Shown: positions 8,857 to 16,107 of the stretch, piece by piece
How the letters are laid out: each line of letters begins with the position of its first letter
How positions within the stretch are numbered: position 1 is the stretch's first letter
NCBI GenBank assembly: GCA_016288295.1
Contig: JAEEYV010000041.1
Coordinates: 1-37,695, forward strand
Source of the DNA: Alphaproteobacteria bacterium
GTDB taxonomy: Bacteria > Pseudomonadota > Alphaproteobacteria > RF32 > CAG-239
Length of the DNA: 37,695 nucleotides
Direction of reading: 5' to 3'
Notes under the pieces: generated by a model
Databases searched by the model: none
The model's input: the letters and a program-made list of their open reading frames with translations, nothing else
What the model was told of the DNA's origin: nothing
Made by a program: the position numbers and the translations under genes

Positions 8857-8934
8857 AAATTTTCATACTTTATAAATAAACTTATCTTACAATACCATAA
8901 AGATTAAAGTTTCAAATTGCAAGGAATTAAACCG

Positions 8935-9219
8935 ATGAACCAACTCCGCCTTATAAAAACAATTGTTTTTGTTTTTACATTTTTATTGATTCTCGGCAGC
9001 CTGACTTTAATCGGATTCTTCTATCATAAGACAATCCGACAGGATTCTCTTGCGCCATCAACAACCAATCTTCGACAATCCGCATCCTCTTCAATCAAAC
9101 AAATTGTAGCCGACAACGGATTGCTTTATATTTTGGTTACAAAAACTAACCAACCCGATAAAATTATTATATTCAACCCAAAGAAAAACAATATAGTTTC
9201 CAACCTTACTACATATTGA
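8935..9219 (+). CDS. Small membrane-anchored hypothetical protein
   Basis: N-terminal TM segment; aaggaa SD upstream of the ATG at 8935. Confidence 0.65.
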   Translation: MNQLRLIKTIVFVFTFLLILGSLTLIGFFYHKTIRQDSLAPSTTNLRQSASSSIKQIVADNGLLYILVTKTNQPDKIIIFNPKKNNIVSNLTTY

Positions 9220-9227
9220 GGATTGAA

Positions 9228-10115
9228 ATGAGCAAAAAAAACAATACCGTTAACGAAACACAAGGCACTAACCCAACTTCTTCTGAAGACGATTTCGACG
9301 CCTTGCTTGATCAGTTCATAAAAAACGAACTTTCTGATATAGAAGAAGAAAAAGAAAACACTCGTATTATGCTCAATGAGCCCGAACCGGCTCCTATCGA
9401 CAATGCTTCCGACGAAGAAGTTGCCGATCAGCTTGATATATCTGAACAAAAGCTCTATGCCGCCTATCGTAACTACGTTGATGCCATTAAAGCCATTGCT
9501 CAAACCCATGGCATTGAAACACCGGCCTTTCATATTAAAGCACAAGTTTTATATCCGAAATACACGCCTAGCCTGGGTAACCTCATAAGCATGGATGTTT
9601 TACAAGGTTGGGATGTCATGTTTGAGGCATTTCCAGAGGATATTGCCCAAATTCAGCCTAATGCTTCAGATGAAGATTTACTTGACTTTGCCGAACAACA
9701 TACTGATGAAAATTTGCAATTGAGTGTCGTTTCATATGTAGAAATCCTCTTTGAAATTGAAGGATGTGAAATCGAATATGAAAAAAGGATTCTTGACTTT
9801 GAGCGTCACAAAATCGAACAGGAAATTATGGAAGAACACAAACGCCGTGCCGAGCATGCTCGTCGCTATATTGAAGCCATCGAAAAAAAACATTTTCCTA
9901 TTAATGCAGAAAAACTTATCACCAACTATTTCAAAGTTGCAACCAAAGATCCTGAAGGCTCTTTTGAAGCTTTAACCACCAATCCGGCAATTTTTGCACC
10001 GATTGAAGTCGACAAAATAAAGCCTAAGTTCTTCGGCTTAATCAAGCCTTCTACCAATGCTGGAATGATGTATAATTATAAAATCGGTCAATTTTTGAAA
10101 AAATTGAAAGCATAA
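9228..10115 (+). CDS. Hypothetical acidic, largely helical soluble protein
   Basis: Long ORF; ATG at 9228 preferred over TTG at 9216; Glu/Asp-rich N-terminus, central charged coiled-coil-like stretch. Confidence 0.8.
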   Translation: MSKKNNTVNETQGTNPTSSEDDFDALLDQFIKNELSDIEEEKENTRIMLNEPEPAPIDNASDEEVADQLDISEQKLYAAYRNYVDAIKAIAQTHGIETPAFHIKAQVLYPKYTPSLGNLISMDVLQGWDVMFEAFPEDIAQIQPNASDEDLLDFAEQHTDENLQLSVVSYVEILFEIEGCEIEYEKRILDFERHKIEQEIMEEHKRRAEHARRYIEAIEKKHFPINAEKLITNYFKVATKDPEGSFEALTTNPAIFAPIEVDKIKPKFFGLIKPSTNAGMMYNYKIGQFLKKLKA

Positions 10116-10128
10116 GTTGCGAAAATTG

Positions 10129-10157
10129 TAGACAAAACCTTAAAATGATGCTATTAT
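10129..10157 (+). promoter_or_regulatory. Predicted sigma70-type promoter for the 10197-15832 operon
   Basis: TAGACA-17 nt-TATTAT, about 40 nt upstream of the ATG at 10197. Confidence 0.5.
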
Positions 10158-10196
10158 ACAAACAATAAATGAATTCTTACACATAGGGGAAAGAAA

Positions 10197-11771
10197 ATGG
10201 CAGAAAAAACAGAAACACTTTCAAAGAAAAAAGAGGATTATGTTACAAATGATCCTATGCCAAAGGATATATCATCACATGCAAAAGGTAATGCATCTGA
10301 CCCGTATGCCCACGAAACTGCACATGATCGTTCATCCTTCAAGGAAGATACTTCTACAATAACTGTTGAGCAATTTCACACGCCTGACGAACGCTTAAGA
10401 TATCTTGAAGTTGAACAAAGAAACCGCATGCTCACCCCTGGTGAGGCAGCAGAACTCAATGATCTTAAAAACAAAGCTCAAGGTTCATTAAAACAGAAAC
10501 CCGTAGGAGAAGCTTACAATAAAGATGATGATGAAACCAAACGTGAAAGCGGTAAAAACCTCATTGATTTTCTATATGAAAAATACTATGAAGCTTTCCT
10601 ATACAAATGTTGCGATTGGGGACGTGATATAGTCGCATGGGCAGGCGGAACACTAGGACACGGTATCTCTTCAGGTTACCGCTCAATTAGAGAACACCGA
10701 GGAGAAGTAAAAGCCAAAAATAAAAAAATCGCTGAAAGTAGAACCTTTGATAAGTGTTGCCAAGTCAGAAAAATACGTGATAAAAAAATAATGGATTTCT
10801 TTCAGCAACAAAGGGAGGAAATTCAAGCCTTTGCAACTCTTTGCAATGCAATCAGAAATGGCTCTCTACCTTCCAAAGACGAACTTATGGAGAAATTTAA
10901 AAACACCGTCATAGCCACCGGCAATCCTGAAGCAGATAAACAAATTGCACTAGTTGAAGTACTCTGTGAACAATATGCAAGTGGTGCTTCTAAAAAAGAA
11001 CGTTCATTCGCTAAAAAACAGTTGAAAGCCTTTGCTCATGATTTTTGCGAGCAACATGGTAAAAAGATGGAAAAAGAAAAGATGGCATTCTTAGCGGCAA
11101 ATGATCTCACTGCTGCCACAATTTTGAAACGTTTGGCTGAAAATACCGATTATGCTAACACTAGCGAAGATTTACAGCAGGCGTATAATAAACAATTGAA
11201 TACTGATAAAAGTGATATTTTTAATGCTGCCAGACACGAAATCAGTGGTATTTCTCCTCAAAAAACTATTTTAACAAAAATTTATGATCTTGCCGACAAA
11301 GCCTACAATTTCAGCCGTACAGAAGCAGAAGATGGGCGTTTTGTCGAACTCGGAGAAAAGGTCGTTAATAATCCTTACATACCGCGTTGCAATAAAGTAA
11401 TAAACAGTTTGATGGCAGATCCCAACAGTACAATCAAAACTAATCCTCAGGTTGATAATGAATACGCAAATAATGCAACTATATTTGAAAAAGACAAAAC
11501 ACAAAATCAGACACTAAGGGAAGCTGCACAAACCTATAGGGATTATGATGAATATATTGCTAATAAAGAGCAACGTCTTAATGAATATCGAGAGCAAAGA
11601 CTTCACCTACGACAGGAAGAACCAAATCGAAAACAAAAACTTCTGCGTAAAATCTCGCAGATAAGAAGTAATGTTCTTGCTAAAAAACAGCAGACCACGC
11701 CTCATACTAATCAGCAGGAATCTCCTACTGTTCAGTATGCCAAAGCAAAGGCAGTAGGTCATGGCTTATAA
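10197..11771 (+). CDS. Hypothetical charged protein (524 aa), first gene of the VirD4-like operon
   Basis: SD ggggaaag; Lys/Glu/Gln-rich; no family recognised; overlaps the next gene by 11 nt. Confidence 0.85.
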   Translation: MAEKTETLSKKKEDYVTNDPMPKDISSHAKGNASDPYAHETAHDRSSFKEDTSTITVEQFHTPDERLRYLEVEQRNRMLTPGEAAELNDLKNKAQGSLKQKPVGEAYNKDDDETKRESGKNLIDFLYEKYYEAFLYKCCDWGRDIVAWAGGTLGHGISSGYRSIREHRGEVKAKNKKIAESRTFDKCCQVRKIRDKKIMDFFQQQREEIQAFATLCNAIRNGSLPSKDELMEKFKNTVIATGNPEADKQIALVEVLCEQYASGASKKERSFAKKQLKAFAHDFCEQHGKKMEKEKMAFLAANDLTAATILKRLAENTDYANTSEDLQQAYNKQLNTDKSDIFNAARHEISGISPQKTILTKIYDLADKAYNFSRTEAEDGRFVELGEKVVNNPYIPRCNKVINSLMADPNSTIKTNPQVDNEYANNATIFEKDKTQNQTLREAAQTYRDYDEYIANKEQRLNEYREQRLHLRQEEPNRKQKLLRKISQIRSNVLAKKQQTTPHTNQQESPTVQYAKAKAVGHGL

Positions 11772-12282
11772 AAAGATTTTGCGCTTTATACGTTTTTGCT
11801 TTATCAGCGTTGTCTGGACAATACTGTATTTCAGTATTGTCCGCATTTTGTTAAAAAGCATCTGGAAATTTGATATTTTTAAGAAAGTATATTGGGAAAA
11901 AATTTCCGAATTTTGGGAAGAAGGCGGTGTCATCAATTCTTTTCAGGAATACACTTTTCTCGCCATGTTAATTGCCATCATTCCCTTATGGTTATGGGGG
12001 TGGAAAAAAGCTAATCAACTTTCAGTTGCCAAAATCATCTTTTTCCCAATCTTTTGGTACAACAGCTACCAAGAACGCAAGTATTCTAAGGCTCCTAAAA
12101 ATATTACCCTAAAGAATATGGGAGGAGGAACCGCCAAACGTTCTCCTCAACAGGTAATGGATGACTTGATTGCGAGTCGTATGCCCAAAGGAAAAGATAA
12201 AAAAGATTTGAATTCAAATAAAATTCGTAGTAACTTTGAAGAAAAGAGTCGGGACTTTCATCAAAAAGCCGACGAACAATAG
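11761..12282 (+). CDS. Membrane protein (173 aa), paralogue A in the VirD4-like operon
   Basis: About two TM segments; VRILLKSIWKFD and IPLWLWGW shared with the next gene. Confidence 0.8.
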   Translation: MAYKKILRFIRFCFISVVWTILYFSIVRILLKSIWKFDIFKKVYWEKISEFWEEGGVINSFQEYTFLAMLIAIIPLWLWGWKKANQLSVAKIIFFPIFWYNSYQERKYSKAPKNITLKNMGGGTAKRSPQQVMDDLIASRMPKGKDKKDLNSNKIRSNFEEKSRDFHQKADEQ

Positions 12283-12294
12283 TAGGAGAAGTGC

Positions 12295-13635
12295 TTGAAA
12301 CCCTTACTGATATTGGCCAGGATTGTTATTGTAGGGCTTATCTGGAGTGTTTTCTTTATGGAAAGCATCAGGGTTATTTTGCTACGCAATTGGCACTTTG
12401 ACATGTTAAACCCTGACCACTGGCGGTATGCATGGGATTTATGGTCTACATCATGGGTCATTTCCGAACCTAAAGAATGGGCCTTTGTCCTCATCATCAT
12501 ATCATTCATTCCGTTATGGCTCACTGGTTGGATTGCCTTAAGCCTTGTTTCTTGGGGAAAACTTCTTTGGTTTATCATTTCTCTACCGTGGAAATTGTTC
12601 CGAAACTTCTTCTACAAACCGGTTAAAATTATCACCACCAACACCGGTGTAACTCCTATCAAACGTAAGCAATCATACAAGGAAATTCGACCCCGCGCTT
12701 TACGCGGAACTCCACCTCCTGTTGAACAGACGACTTTGATTACTCCTCAGCCGACACTAAACTCTGCCCAGTCTGCTCAAATTATCCGTAGCCCGATTTT
12801 ATCATCGACTTCTGCGCCGGCACAACCATCCACCCCTACTCCATCATCTACCCCGGCAAAATTTGAGCATGCCTTGTTCAAATTTGACGATGATAGCGAT
12901 GATATAGATTTTGACATTGACTCATTTGACGTTAATCCAACGCCTAAACCGCAAAAAACTTATACATCTTCTCGCAAAACTTACGATGAAGATGACGAGC
13001 TTCCTTCCAGTAAAAATGAAAGAAGAGAACGCAACTCCCGCGATTATCAACGTACCGATAAGGACGAATTCCAAGTTTCACGTTCCTCCTCAAAGTCAAA
13101 AGATAACACCAACAACAATCAATCATCTAAATCACCTAGTGGTTCATGTATTGATATTATTCGCCAAAAAGGTTATGAAGTTATCAGCCGTGTTTCGGTT
13201 AAAAATACTATTATTGATTATGTCGCCGTTTCGGCCAACCGCATCTGTTTGTGCATGCTTGACCGCGAACCCGGAGATTGGTTAGCTGATGAAGAACGTT
13301 TCAATGATGAAGAGCCTTTATGGTTTTCTGAAAACTCACATCGCATTTCGCCGGTACGCAAGATTTCTTTAGCTCGTGAAACCGTTTCTGACGTTTTAGA
13401 TGCCGCTGATATGCATTTTGCGATTATACCGTTTGTTATTGTACAAATTGGCAACATCATTAATGCTGAAGACATGTTTGAAATTTGGGAAGAACAACAG
13501 GTTAATGTTACACGTATTGATCGTGGTACACCAAAAGAAATGCGATTGTTTGCCCGGGCTCTTCCTAATGCGGACAAGCCGATTGCCCCCGGCAAACTTG
13601 ACAAATTGATTAATATTCTTAACTCTATAAAGTAA
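12295..13635 (+). CDS. Membrane protein (446 aa), paralogue B, with low-complexity linker and C-terminal globular domain
   Basis: TTG start with taggagaa SD; IPLWLTGW motif; Pro/Ser/Thr and Asp-rich linker; C-terminal domain from about SCIDIIRQKGYEVI. Confidence 0.8.
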   Translation: MKPLLILARIVIVGLIWSVFFMESIRVILLRNWHFDMLNPDHWRYAWDLWSTSWVISEPKEWAFVLIIISFIPLWLTGWIALSLVSWGKLLWFIISLPWKLFRNFFYKPVKIITTNTGVTPIKRKQSYKEIRPRALRGTPPPVEQTTLITPQPTLNSAQSAQIIRSPILSSTSAPAQPSTPTPSSTPAKFEHALFKFDDDSDDIDFDIDSFDVNPTPKPQKTYTSSRKTYDEDDELPSSKNERRERNSRDYQRTDKDEFQVSRSSSKSKDNTNNNQSSKSPSGSCIDIIRQKGYEVISRVSVKNTIIDYVAVSANRICLCMLDREPGDWLADEERFNDEEPLWFSENSHRISPVRKISLARETVSDVLDAADMHFAIIPFVIVQIGNIINAEDMFEIWEEQQVNVTRIDRGTPKEMRLFARALPNADKPIAPGKLDKLINILNSIK

Positions 13636-13654
13636 ACAAAGGAAATTGAATAAT

Positions 13655-15832
13655 ATGAAAAAACGCGGAGAAGAATGGGAAGAATACGACCACGCTGTCC
13701 AATGGATGGCTTTGACCGTAATCATTACCCTTTTAGTTACGATTCTTTTAGCTGCTTTATCTTTGCCTCTTGGTTATCTTATTGGTAGTGGAGTATCAAA
13801 AGAATCCATGACCAATGTTGGCAAATTCTTAGCTACGATTGTTGGAAATCCTGCATATCTTTTCCACCAATATGGACGTTGGTTTCATCAAATTTCTAAC
13901 CATCAAGGCAATTTTAACGTCGGACTATGGTTACCGATATTACCAATACTAACCCTTCCGATAGGTTTGATTGTCGGAGCCATATCTAACCCATACCGTT
14001 TTCAGTCAAACATTCACGGTTCCGGTCGTATGGCTACTCTAAAAGATATTAAGGCAATGAAACTGCTGGACGGCTTTTGCATGGTTGTCGGCAAATATAA
14101 GGGCTACTACCTGAAACTGCCTGAAACTTTATCCACACTTTGTTGCGCACCTCCGGGAACTGGTAAAACCGCCGGTGTTGTAATTCCTACAATTTTTAAC
14201 TCCAAAGGAATGAGTTTAATTATTAACGACCCTAAACCGGAATTATGTTACAGCACTTCCGGCGCACGCGCAAAAGAAGGTCCGGTCTTTATTATCAACT
14301 GGGGTGCAGAAGATAAACCTGAAGAAGGCCTTTATTACCCGAGTTGGAATCCGTTGTCTCCATCATGTATCCCGATGGCAGGACCGGCTCGTGATATGTA
14401 CATCGACTCCATGTGCAACATTTTGGTTGAAGACCCTAAAGGCGGTGCCGATCCGCACTGGTCACAAACGGGGCGTGCAGCCTTAACCGGTTTTATTCAC
14501 TTTATCGCTTCTAAATGCGAAAAAGCTCGCGCTAATGACTATTTTATCAGCCGCATTTATGAAGGAAAGCTTGACGCAGAAGACCGCCACGTTCTTGAAG
14601 GATATTACGAAGATATCAAAATGCACAATCCGGCAGCCATAAGAGCTATAACCGATCTACGCAACAACAATTTAACAGTTGAAAATTATGTCCCGATTGG
14701 CACATGGGATTTATTACCTGAAAAATGGGTTGGACGTGAAGCTTGTATTGCTATGATTATGGAATGGCTAACCGAAGCTCAAATCAAACAAGGACAGGAA
14801 ATTCGTCGCCGTATGGATGAAGGTGATCAAATGGCCGCCATGGCCGACCCAATGCGCGATTTGCTAGAGGCCGCTATTGAAGAAGCCCGTAAATATGGAT
14901 ATACTCAACGTGCTTATACAGAGCTTTCGTCCTTAAGTAACATGCCGGACAAAGAACGTGGTTCCGTAATGTCAACCGCATTTGCCGGTATTAACGTGTT
15001 TAAAAACTCTGCCGTTGTTGCTCGTACCAGTTTTTCTGATATTCAATTCAAAGATTTACGTGGCATGAAAGACCCAATTACCGGCGCATGGAAACCTATT
15101 TCGGTTTATCTGTCGGTTAATCAGGTTGATGCCAGAGCATTAGGTGTTATTAACGGTATTTTTATTGAATTAATGTCCTCTTATCTTATTTCTAACCCAC
15201 CAAACTATGTCAATCCTTCTGATGGCAAAATGGGACCATTCCCAACAATGTTTGTTTTGGACGAGTTTCCGCAAATGCCTAAGCTAAAAGCCATTATTGA
15301 CGGACCGGCTGTCGGTCGTGGTCAAAAAGTAGCTTACTTGCTTATTGGACAAGATTTAGGACAAATCTCCGGTAAATATGGAAAAGATGATTTGGAAACT
15401 GTTATTTCTACAACTGCTTGTAAAGTCATATTATCACAAAACAACGAGCAAACTGCACAACGTTTTTCAAAAATGGTCGGCAACAAAACCGTTCAGACCA
15501 CATCTTTTTCAAAACAAGAAGGTTTTGCAGCTAAAGGAGCTAATCCTTTCGCTAAAAACACCACTTATTCTCTGCAGGGTGTCTCCGTTATTACGACCTC
15601 TCAATTGTTGAGTTTACCTCAACTTAAACAGGTGGTTTTGATGCAAAGTAATATTGATCACCCGATTATGGCTGATTCTCCCAGATGGTATCTTGACCCC
15701 AAAATGAAAGCTCTGGCCAAGATACCTCCGGCTCCAAATGTTCCGGAGTGGATTGTGGCGCAGCGTGAAGACATCAATGATAACATGTTAGAAAAACTCG
15801 GTCTTGCCGATTCTGAAAATACAGCATCTTAG
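13655..15832 (+). CDS. VirD4/TraG-like type IV secretion coupling ATPase
   Basis: Two N-terminal TM segments; GSGRMATLKDI; Walker A APPGTGKTAGVVIPT; NDPKPEL; Walker B TMFVLDEFPQMPKL. ATG at 13655 with SD aaagga. Confidence 0.9.
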   Translation: MKKRGEEWEEYDHAVQWMALTVIITLLVTILLAALSLPLGYLIGSGVSKESMTNVGKFLATIVGNPAYLFHQYGRWFHQISNHQGNFNVGLWLPILPILTLPIGLIVGAISNPYRFQSNIHGSGRMATLKDIKAMKLLDGFCMVVGKYKGYYLKLPETLSTLCCAPPGTGKTAGVVIPTIFNSKGMSLIINDPKPELCYSTSGARAKEGPVFIINWGAEDKPEEGLYYPSWNPLSPSCIPMAGPARDMYIDSMCNILVEDPKGGADPHWSQTGRAALTGFIHFIASKCEKARANDYFISRIYEGKLDAEDRHVLEGYYEDIKMHNPAAIRAITDLRNNNLTVENYVPIGTWDLLPEKWVGREACIAMIMEWLTEAQIKQGQEIRRRMDEGDQMAAMADPMRDLLEAAIEEARKYGYTQRAYTELSSLSNMPDKERGSVMSTAFAGINVFKNSAVVARTSFSDIQFKDLRGMKDPITGAWKPISVYLSVNQVDARALGVINGIFIELMSSYLISNPPNYVNPSDGKMGPFPTMFVLDEFPQMPKLKAIIDGPAVGRGQKVAYLLIGQDLGQISGKYGKDDLETVISTTACKVILSQNNEQTAQRFSKMVGNKTVQTTSFSKQEGFAAKGANPFAKNTTYSLQGVSVITTSQLLSLPQLKQVVLMQSNIDHPIMADSPRWYLDPKMKALAKIPPAPNVPEWIVAQREDINDNMLEKLGLADSENTAS

Positions 15833-16107
15833 TCGTATATTTCATCAATAAGATTGAGTATTTTATAGCACTTATCATCAACAAGAGAATAATATATTGA
15901 TTGAGCCGAGCGACGGGTTGAAACGATTCCCGTCGCTCTTAATATTGCTAAATGTTGCGACAATGCTGACTGGCTTATTTTCATAATTTTTTCCAACTCA
16001 CTCACTCTTTTTTCTTTTTTGCGTAAATTATAGACTATCTCAAGACGCTTACTGTTTCCCAAAGATTTCAAAATTTTAGCCCCCTGAACAATCTTTTTAA
16101 TTTTCAT
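15829..16107 (-). CDS. ArsR/SmtB-family winged-helix regulator
   Basis: 92 aa; VSELEKIMKISQSALSQHLAILRATGIVSTRR HTH; stop overlaps the virD4-like stop convergently. Confidence 0.85.
   Translation of the reverse strand: MKIKKIVQGAKILKSLGNSKRLEIVYNLRKKEKRVSELEKIMKISQSALSQHLAILRATGIVSTRRSAQSIYYSLVDDKCYKILNLIDEIYD

Follow-up and report, generated by a model that had tools for sequence, protein, structure and literature searches.

Gene organization and promoter of the locus

The DNA analyzed here, referred to as the window, is a 37,695-nt stretch of the forward strand of contig JAEEYV010000041.1 (assembly GCA_016288295.1) from an Alphaproteobacteria bacterium with a 1.47-Mb genome. It carries five consecutive genes, designated X, A, B, C and D (Table 1). 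The initial annotation had described A to D as a four-gene unit, and the open reading frames and strands of these four genes agreed with that description. So did their spacing, with an 11-nt overlap between A and B, a 12-nt gap between B and C, and a 19-nt gap between C and D when D is read from the ATG at 13655 instead of the alternative TTG at 13646. However, in each of the 70 loci with a complete reading from X to D, X comes first, and the unit therefore comprises five genes. The order X-A-B-C-D was kept in every one of these loci, and synteny of the upstream genes with the ATPase is near-universal in relatives.

Table 1. Positions of the operon genes, the promoter and the preceding gene in the window
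Feature	Position	Strand	Evidence or remark
DUF6476 gene, adjoins rluD	8917..9219	+	Pfam PF20082, 26.6 bits (cut-off 24)
X, 299 aa, soluble, all-helical	9216..10115	+	First operon gene in 70/70 loci; likely start ATG 9228
Promoter TAGACA-17-TATTAT, sigma-70-type, in the X-A gap	10129..10157	+	Pattern in 69/70 loci
A, 524 aa, soluble, fast-evolving	10197..11771	+	ORF at this place in 70/70 full-operon loci
B, membrane protein of 173 aa, paralogous to C	11761..12282	+	C profile match, 2.4e-22
C, 446 aa, two TM helices and a cytosolic NERD/PD-(D/E)XK-like domain	12295..13635	+	AlphaFold2, Foldseek, Pfam NERD, alignment
D, VirD4/TraG-family coupling ATPase	13646..15832	+	PF02534, 4e-59; likely start ATG 13655

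The last 4 nt of the upstream DUF6476 gene overlap X at its start. This gene is probably a chromosomal housekeeping gene outside the system, and X is probably transcribed together with it. At the other end, a small ArsR-like regulator gene (15829-16107) lies on the strand opposite to D and, in the window's genus, shares 4 nt with the end of D; it adjoins D in the closest relatives only.

A single promoter had been predicted for A to D. Scanning the window stretch for promoters gave 18 hits compared to 19.8 in shuffled sequences, and the scan alone was thus at chance level. Yet 69 of 70 relatives carry the same -35/-10 pair ahead of A, as opposed to 0.3 expected in shuffles, with a 17-nt spacer in 67. 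This recurrence indicates that the promoter is real and, judging from sequence conservation, that A-B-C-D has its own conserved promoter; read-through from X into A is possible. The median dN/dS values were 0.08 for X, 0.13 for A, 0.08 for B, 0.05 for C and 0.016 for D, and by this measure purifying selection acts on each of the five genes.

Proteins encoded by the operon

D was proposed to be a VirD4/TraG-like ATPase with two transmembrane (TM) segments, and our searches agree. In addition to PF02534, D matched PF12696 (3e-22), and it has two N-terminal TM segments, a Walker A motif (APPGTGKT) at 168 and an LDEFP motif at 538, both motifs being present in all 70 aligned orthologs. Only 37 residues lie beyond position 691. 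VirD4 was found in 61 of the 64 genomes of the source family, including one 59% complete genome (G408) that may carry only a divergent second VirD4. Such a second VirD4, 27-36% identical to D, occurs in many genera of the source family, the window's genus not among them (for example at L178:9673-12018 on contig C4 of G406, and at L184:9797). In G406, its gene lies after that of a pentapeptide-repeat protein and before an apparent rarA and an rluC-type gene, and no VirB genes adjoin it. A sequence search of the PDB with profiles of D, C and X gave no useful match.

A, B and C had been assigned to no recognized family, and none of the three window proteins indeed had a Pfam or NCBIfam match above the cut-off. 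AlphaFold2 predicts for C two TM helices and, connected to them by a disordered linker, an alpha/beta domain (about 283-446) that is modeled with confidence. In Foldseek, this domain resembled PD-(D/E)XK folds, with probabilities of 0.99 for NucS and 0.96 for the MmcB-like structure 3fov, albeit with weak E-values (best 2e-3). Furthermore, 14 of 53 C members matched Pfam NERD (PF08378; best 3e-5). The E-x-K residues, however, are gone in every aligned member shown, distant families included, where they are replaced by C-M/L-L-D, and a loop, GDWLADEERFNDEEPLWFSE, is nearly invariant in the alignment. On this replacement, the domain is probably catalytically dead and serves as a binding domain.

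The C profile recovered B over positions 2-158, which bears out the proposal that B and C are paralogous membrane proteins. B is truncated in 68 of 70 loci and lacks the C-terminal domain; it is full-length in L109 and L112 (377 and 385 aa). Across 385 alphaproteobacterial genomes, the C profile matched in 24. Among the distant loci examined, 11 have C adjoining VirD4, covering about ten alphaproteobacterial families, and extra C-like copies with no neighboring VirD4 were seen at L148, L159, L161 and L163.

X was modeled by AlphaFold2 as an all-helical protein (pLDDT 89). A Foldseek search with this model, PDB included, gave no match better than E 3 and no known fold, and Pfam searches with members of A and X returned chance matches only. 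X is present in 18 of the 385 alphaproteobacterial genomes, and 17 of these also hold C; in the single exception (G017), the contig ends inside A. The hypergeometric value for this co-occurrence is 3e-23, which is uncorrected for phylogeny and, since the sampled genomes are related, only descriptive. In G044, G092, G189, G273 and G315, X adjoins a VirB6 array outside the D operon. Such unlinked co-occurrences, with X beside VirB6 and C still in the genome, provide the strongest support for X, C and D acting together. From linkage and co-occurrence, X is a putative conserved accessory of the type IV secretion system (T4SS), an adaptor or a chaperone.

The ORF at the place of A ranges from 468 to 1069 aa, and the N-terminus of A looks disordered. 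In one relative, the identity to A is only 23% even though D is 94% identical. The idea that unrelated genes have taken the place of A within the source family was considered and rejected, because the identity of A falls smoothly with D distance. Positive selection as the source of this divergence was likewise unsupported gene-wide, with a dN/dS of about 0.13. Outside three families, A is too divergent for provable homology; X is followed in the distant families examined by a soluble, charged protein of 309-495 aa, the sequence of which is too distant to establish homology to A. The tail of A is basic or Gly-Arg, with an R among its four final residues in 52 of 70 loci, a suggestive feature only. 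A charge-based C-terminal secretion signal was weak as a candidate, because the tails of B and C are equally basic and the Gly-Arg ending alone is specific to A. A is a putative cognate substrate or substrate adaptor, and its rapid divergence and Gly-Arg ending lead us to lean toward a substrate.

VirB genes elsewhere in the genome

The window contains no VirB genes, as had been noted, but the ATPase is not an orphan receptor, since a full VirB system sits on another contig (C40) of the same genome. This contig encodes three VirB2-like proteins, a likely VirB3, VirB4, two copies of VirB8, VirB9, VirB10, a VirB11-type ATPase and four VirB6-like regions. The profile scores were 2e-25 for VirB8, 2e-11 for VirB9, 1e-32 for TrbI and 9e-20 for T2SSE, and the one VirB2-like protein tested of the three matched PF04956 at 7e-7. 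The VirB3 candidate is a 96-aa ORF overlapping virB4 at the expected place, with PF05101 under its cut-off. Two of the VirB6 copies were over the cut-off in the genome search and two below. VirB4 and VirB9 are single-copy.

VirB10 comprises a TrbI domain behind beta-flower repeats, with nine repeat stretches ahead of TrbI (L113:7760-16983, G000:C40); its 1636-aa neighbor has 15 plus 10. The repeats suggest a giant repeat-built periplasmic structure. Between virB4 and virB8 lie genes for four large proteins (1283, 417, 217 and 675 aa; L032:363-8157, G000:C40) with no clear Pfam family. Beside the VirB genes, divergent to virB2-virB4 (L032:14133-19099 and L114:113-4084), is an operon for a type IVb pilus (TcpQ, secretin, PilO, PilP, PilQ, PilR and pilin), which is also found in G406.

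In the near-complete genome G406, the VirB genes have the same order, and the X-A-B-C-D operon is again on a different contig. VirB4 was found in 58 of the 64 source-family genomes, and no genome lacks both VirB4 and VirD4. The missing copies therefore look like assembly gaps, as G017 illustrates with its contig end inside A. VirB and VirD4 are unlinked in the source family, a point against reading the operon as a coupling module. In other genomes they lie together: C and D immediately precede VirB8-VirB9-beta-flower in the same orientation in G054, and the closest outgroup D, one without C, comes after virB8-9-10-11 in G033 and G037. The genome has the VirD4 features of a P-type VirB/D4 T4SS (Walker A, LDEFP and two N-terminal TM segments) together with the channel components VirB4, VirB6, VirB8, VirB9, VirB10 and VirB11. 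The assignment of D as the VirD4 of this VirB system is well supported.

A possible coupling module and its relation to known systems

We consider it quite probable that X-A-B-C-D encodes the coupling module for a P-type VirB/D4 T4SS carried on the chromosome, with the channel genes at another place in the genome and with B, C and X as likely members of the coupling complex of D. The proposal of a dedicated coupling complex thus stands as the best reading, now with five genes instead of four and with a VirB system in the genome. Neither of the two findings named beforehand as counting against it, membership in a standard ICE or plasmid transfer region and lost synteny in relatives, was borne out. 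In the source family of uncultured gut alphaproteobacteria and in several other families, D is the hexameric VirD4 ATPase of the inner membrane, a role supported by its family, its motifs and orthologs encoded right behind virB8-B11. Both C and the shortened paralog B would sit in the membrane beside D, and the dead NERD-like domain of C may provide a cytosolic docking surface. X could be the cytosolic helical adaptor or chaperone of the machine, and A the protein handled by X and C/D, most likely an exported fast-evolving substrate and otherwise a substrate adaptor. The system would most likely deliver protein.

The main alternative is P-type conjugation or another form of DNA transfer, in which C and B would be DNA-binding pseudo-nuclease adaptors and A and X relaxosome proteins handing DNA to VirD4. 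NERD/PD-(D/E)XK folds usually bind DNA, and D resembles conjugative coupling proteins too. However, MobA/L (PF03432) and TrwC (PF08751) relaxases were over the cut-off in none of the 64 source-family genomes, and C had no match in a collection of 72,556 plasmids, so that the operon does not belong to an ICE or plasmid region of a known kind. The nearly universal vertical presence in source-family genomes also argues against DNA transfer, which we regard as unlikely. With these two relaxase families covered, protein secretion is more likely than conjugation.

It is more doubtful still that D is an ordinary VirD4 with which the unrelated small genes X, A, B and C are merely co-transcribed. Such an arrangement would fit the rapid fading of sequence similarity in A and its lack of a detectable function, as opposed to the constant gene order in all 70 full loci, the C-D adjacency in about ten families, and the X/C co-occurrence, which persists where X shifts to VirB6 clusters in other families and disfavors chance grouping. 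An anti-phage defense operon, built from a membrane nuclease and a TraG-like ATPase, is very improbable: the NERD-like domain with TM helices and a weak match of D to PADLOC mad8 (4.5e-4) would suit it, whereas the other four proteins had no PADLOC match, the nuclease residues are lost, D orthologs sit in virB arrays, and the operon is found in nearly all family members, unlike patchy defense loci.

P-type VirD4 is usually pictured as a lone receptor, and elaborate coupling platforms are known from Dot/Icm. The coupling module proposed here resembles a loading platform of a type not described earlier, and it suggests that one built on a repurposed nuclease fold has arisen among uncultured alphaproteobacteria from the guts of mammals and other hosts. 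A more specific picture, which we offer tentatively, is a multi-subunit coupling complex on a P-type VirB/D4 system, evolved independently of Dot/Icm, that comprises VirD4, a membrane-anchored pseudo-nuclease receptor pair, the dedicated chaperone X and the hypervariable, co-encoded substrate A in host-associated gut alphaproteobacteria. The analysis yields five concrete candidate proteins and a secretion system that has not been studied, although nearly every sampled member of one family has it; our literature search found no paper on a T4SS in this lineage.

Structural comparison places the C-terminal domain of C close to NERD (PF08378)/PD-(D/E)XK nuclease-like proteins in fold and Pfam similarity. 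C differs from them in its replaced E-x-K, its lineage-specific loop, its two TM helices, which are always present, and its position beside virD4 in most loci.

In Agrobacterium VirB/D4, substrates are paired with chaperones, such as VirE1-VirE2. A possible likeness is a chaperone (X) and a substrate (A) feeding VirD4, with the X-A pairing drawn from gene order only. The two systems differ in that no sequence relation was detected and no relaxase of the two families searched was found here.

The initial annotation had also compared the locus to the DotL-DotM-DotN subcomplex of Legionella Dot/Icm (DotL-DotM-DotN-IcmSW). As an analogy this stands: both have a coupling ATPase, a membrane-anchored partner with a cytosolic domain, and small soluble adaptors. 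As homology, with a type IVB subcomplex carried over from a T4BSS, it was rejected and is the least credible of the readings, because the domain of C is NERD-like alpha/beta whereas DotM is all-helical (PMC5802825), D has no long C-terminal tail like that of DotL, which docks DotN and IcmSW and runs from residue 572 to at least 783 (PMC7280309), DotH/IcmK (PF12293) had no match at E<=1 in the genome, and the channel genes are of the VirB8/9/10/11 type. X and A also contain no CxxC motif. In our comparison, the link to Dot/Icm is thus one of logic and not of descent.

The nearest known relative in style is the rvh T4SS of Rickettsiales with its RvhD4 (PMC2653234, PMC11077975). Both systems are chromosomal, scattered VirB/D4 systems with several VirB6 and VirB2 and a duplicated VirB8. 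The system described here differs in having single VirB4 and VirB9, two components whose duplication is a hallmark of rvh, and in the beta-flower repeats on VirB10 and its 1636-aa neighbor and the adjacent type IVb pilus operon. Furthermore, its virD4 lies apart from virB8-B11 and is joined to X, A, B and C.
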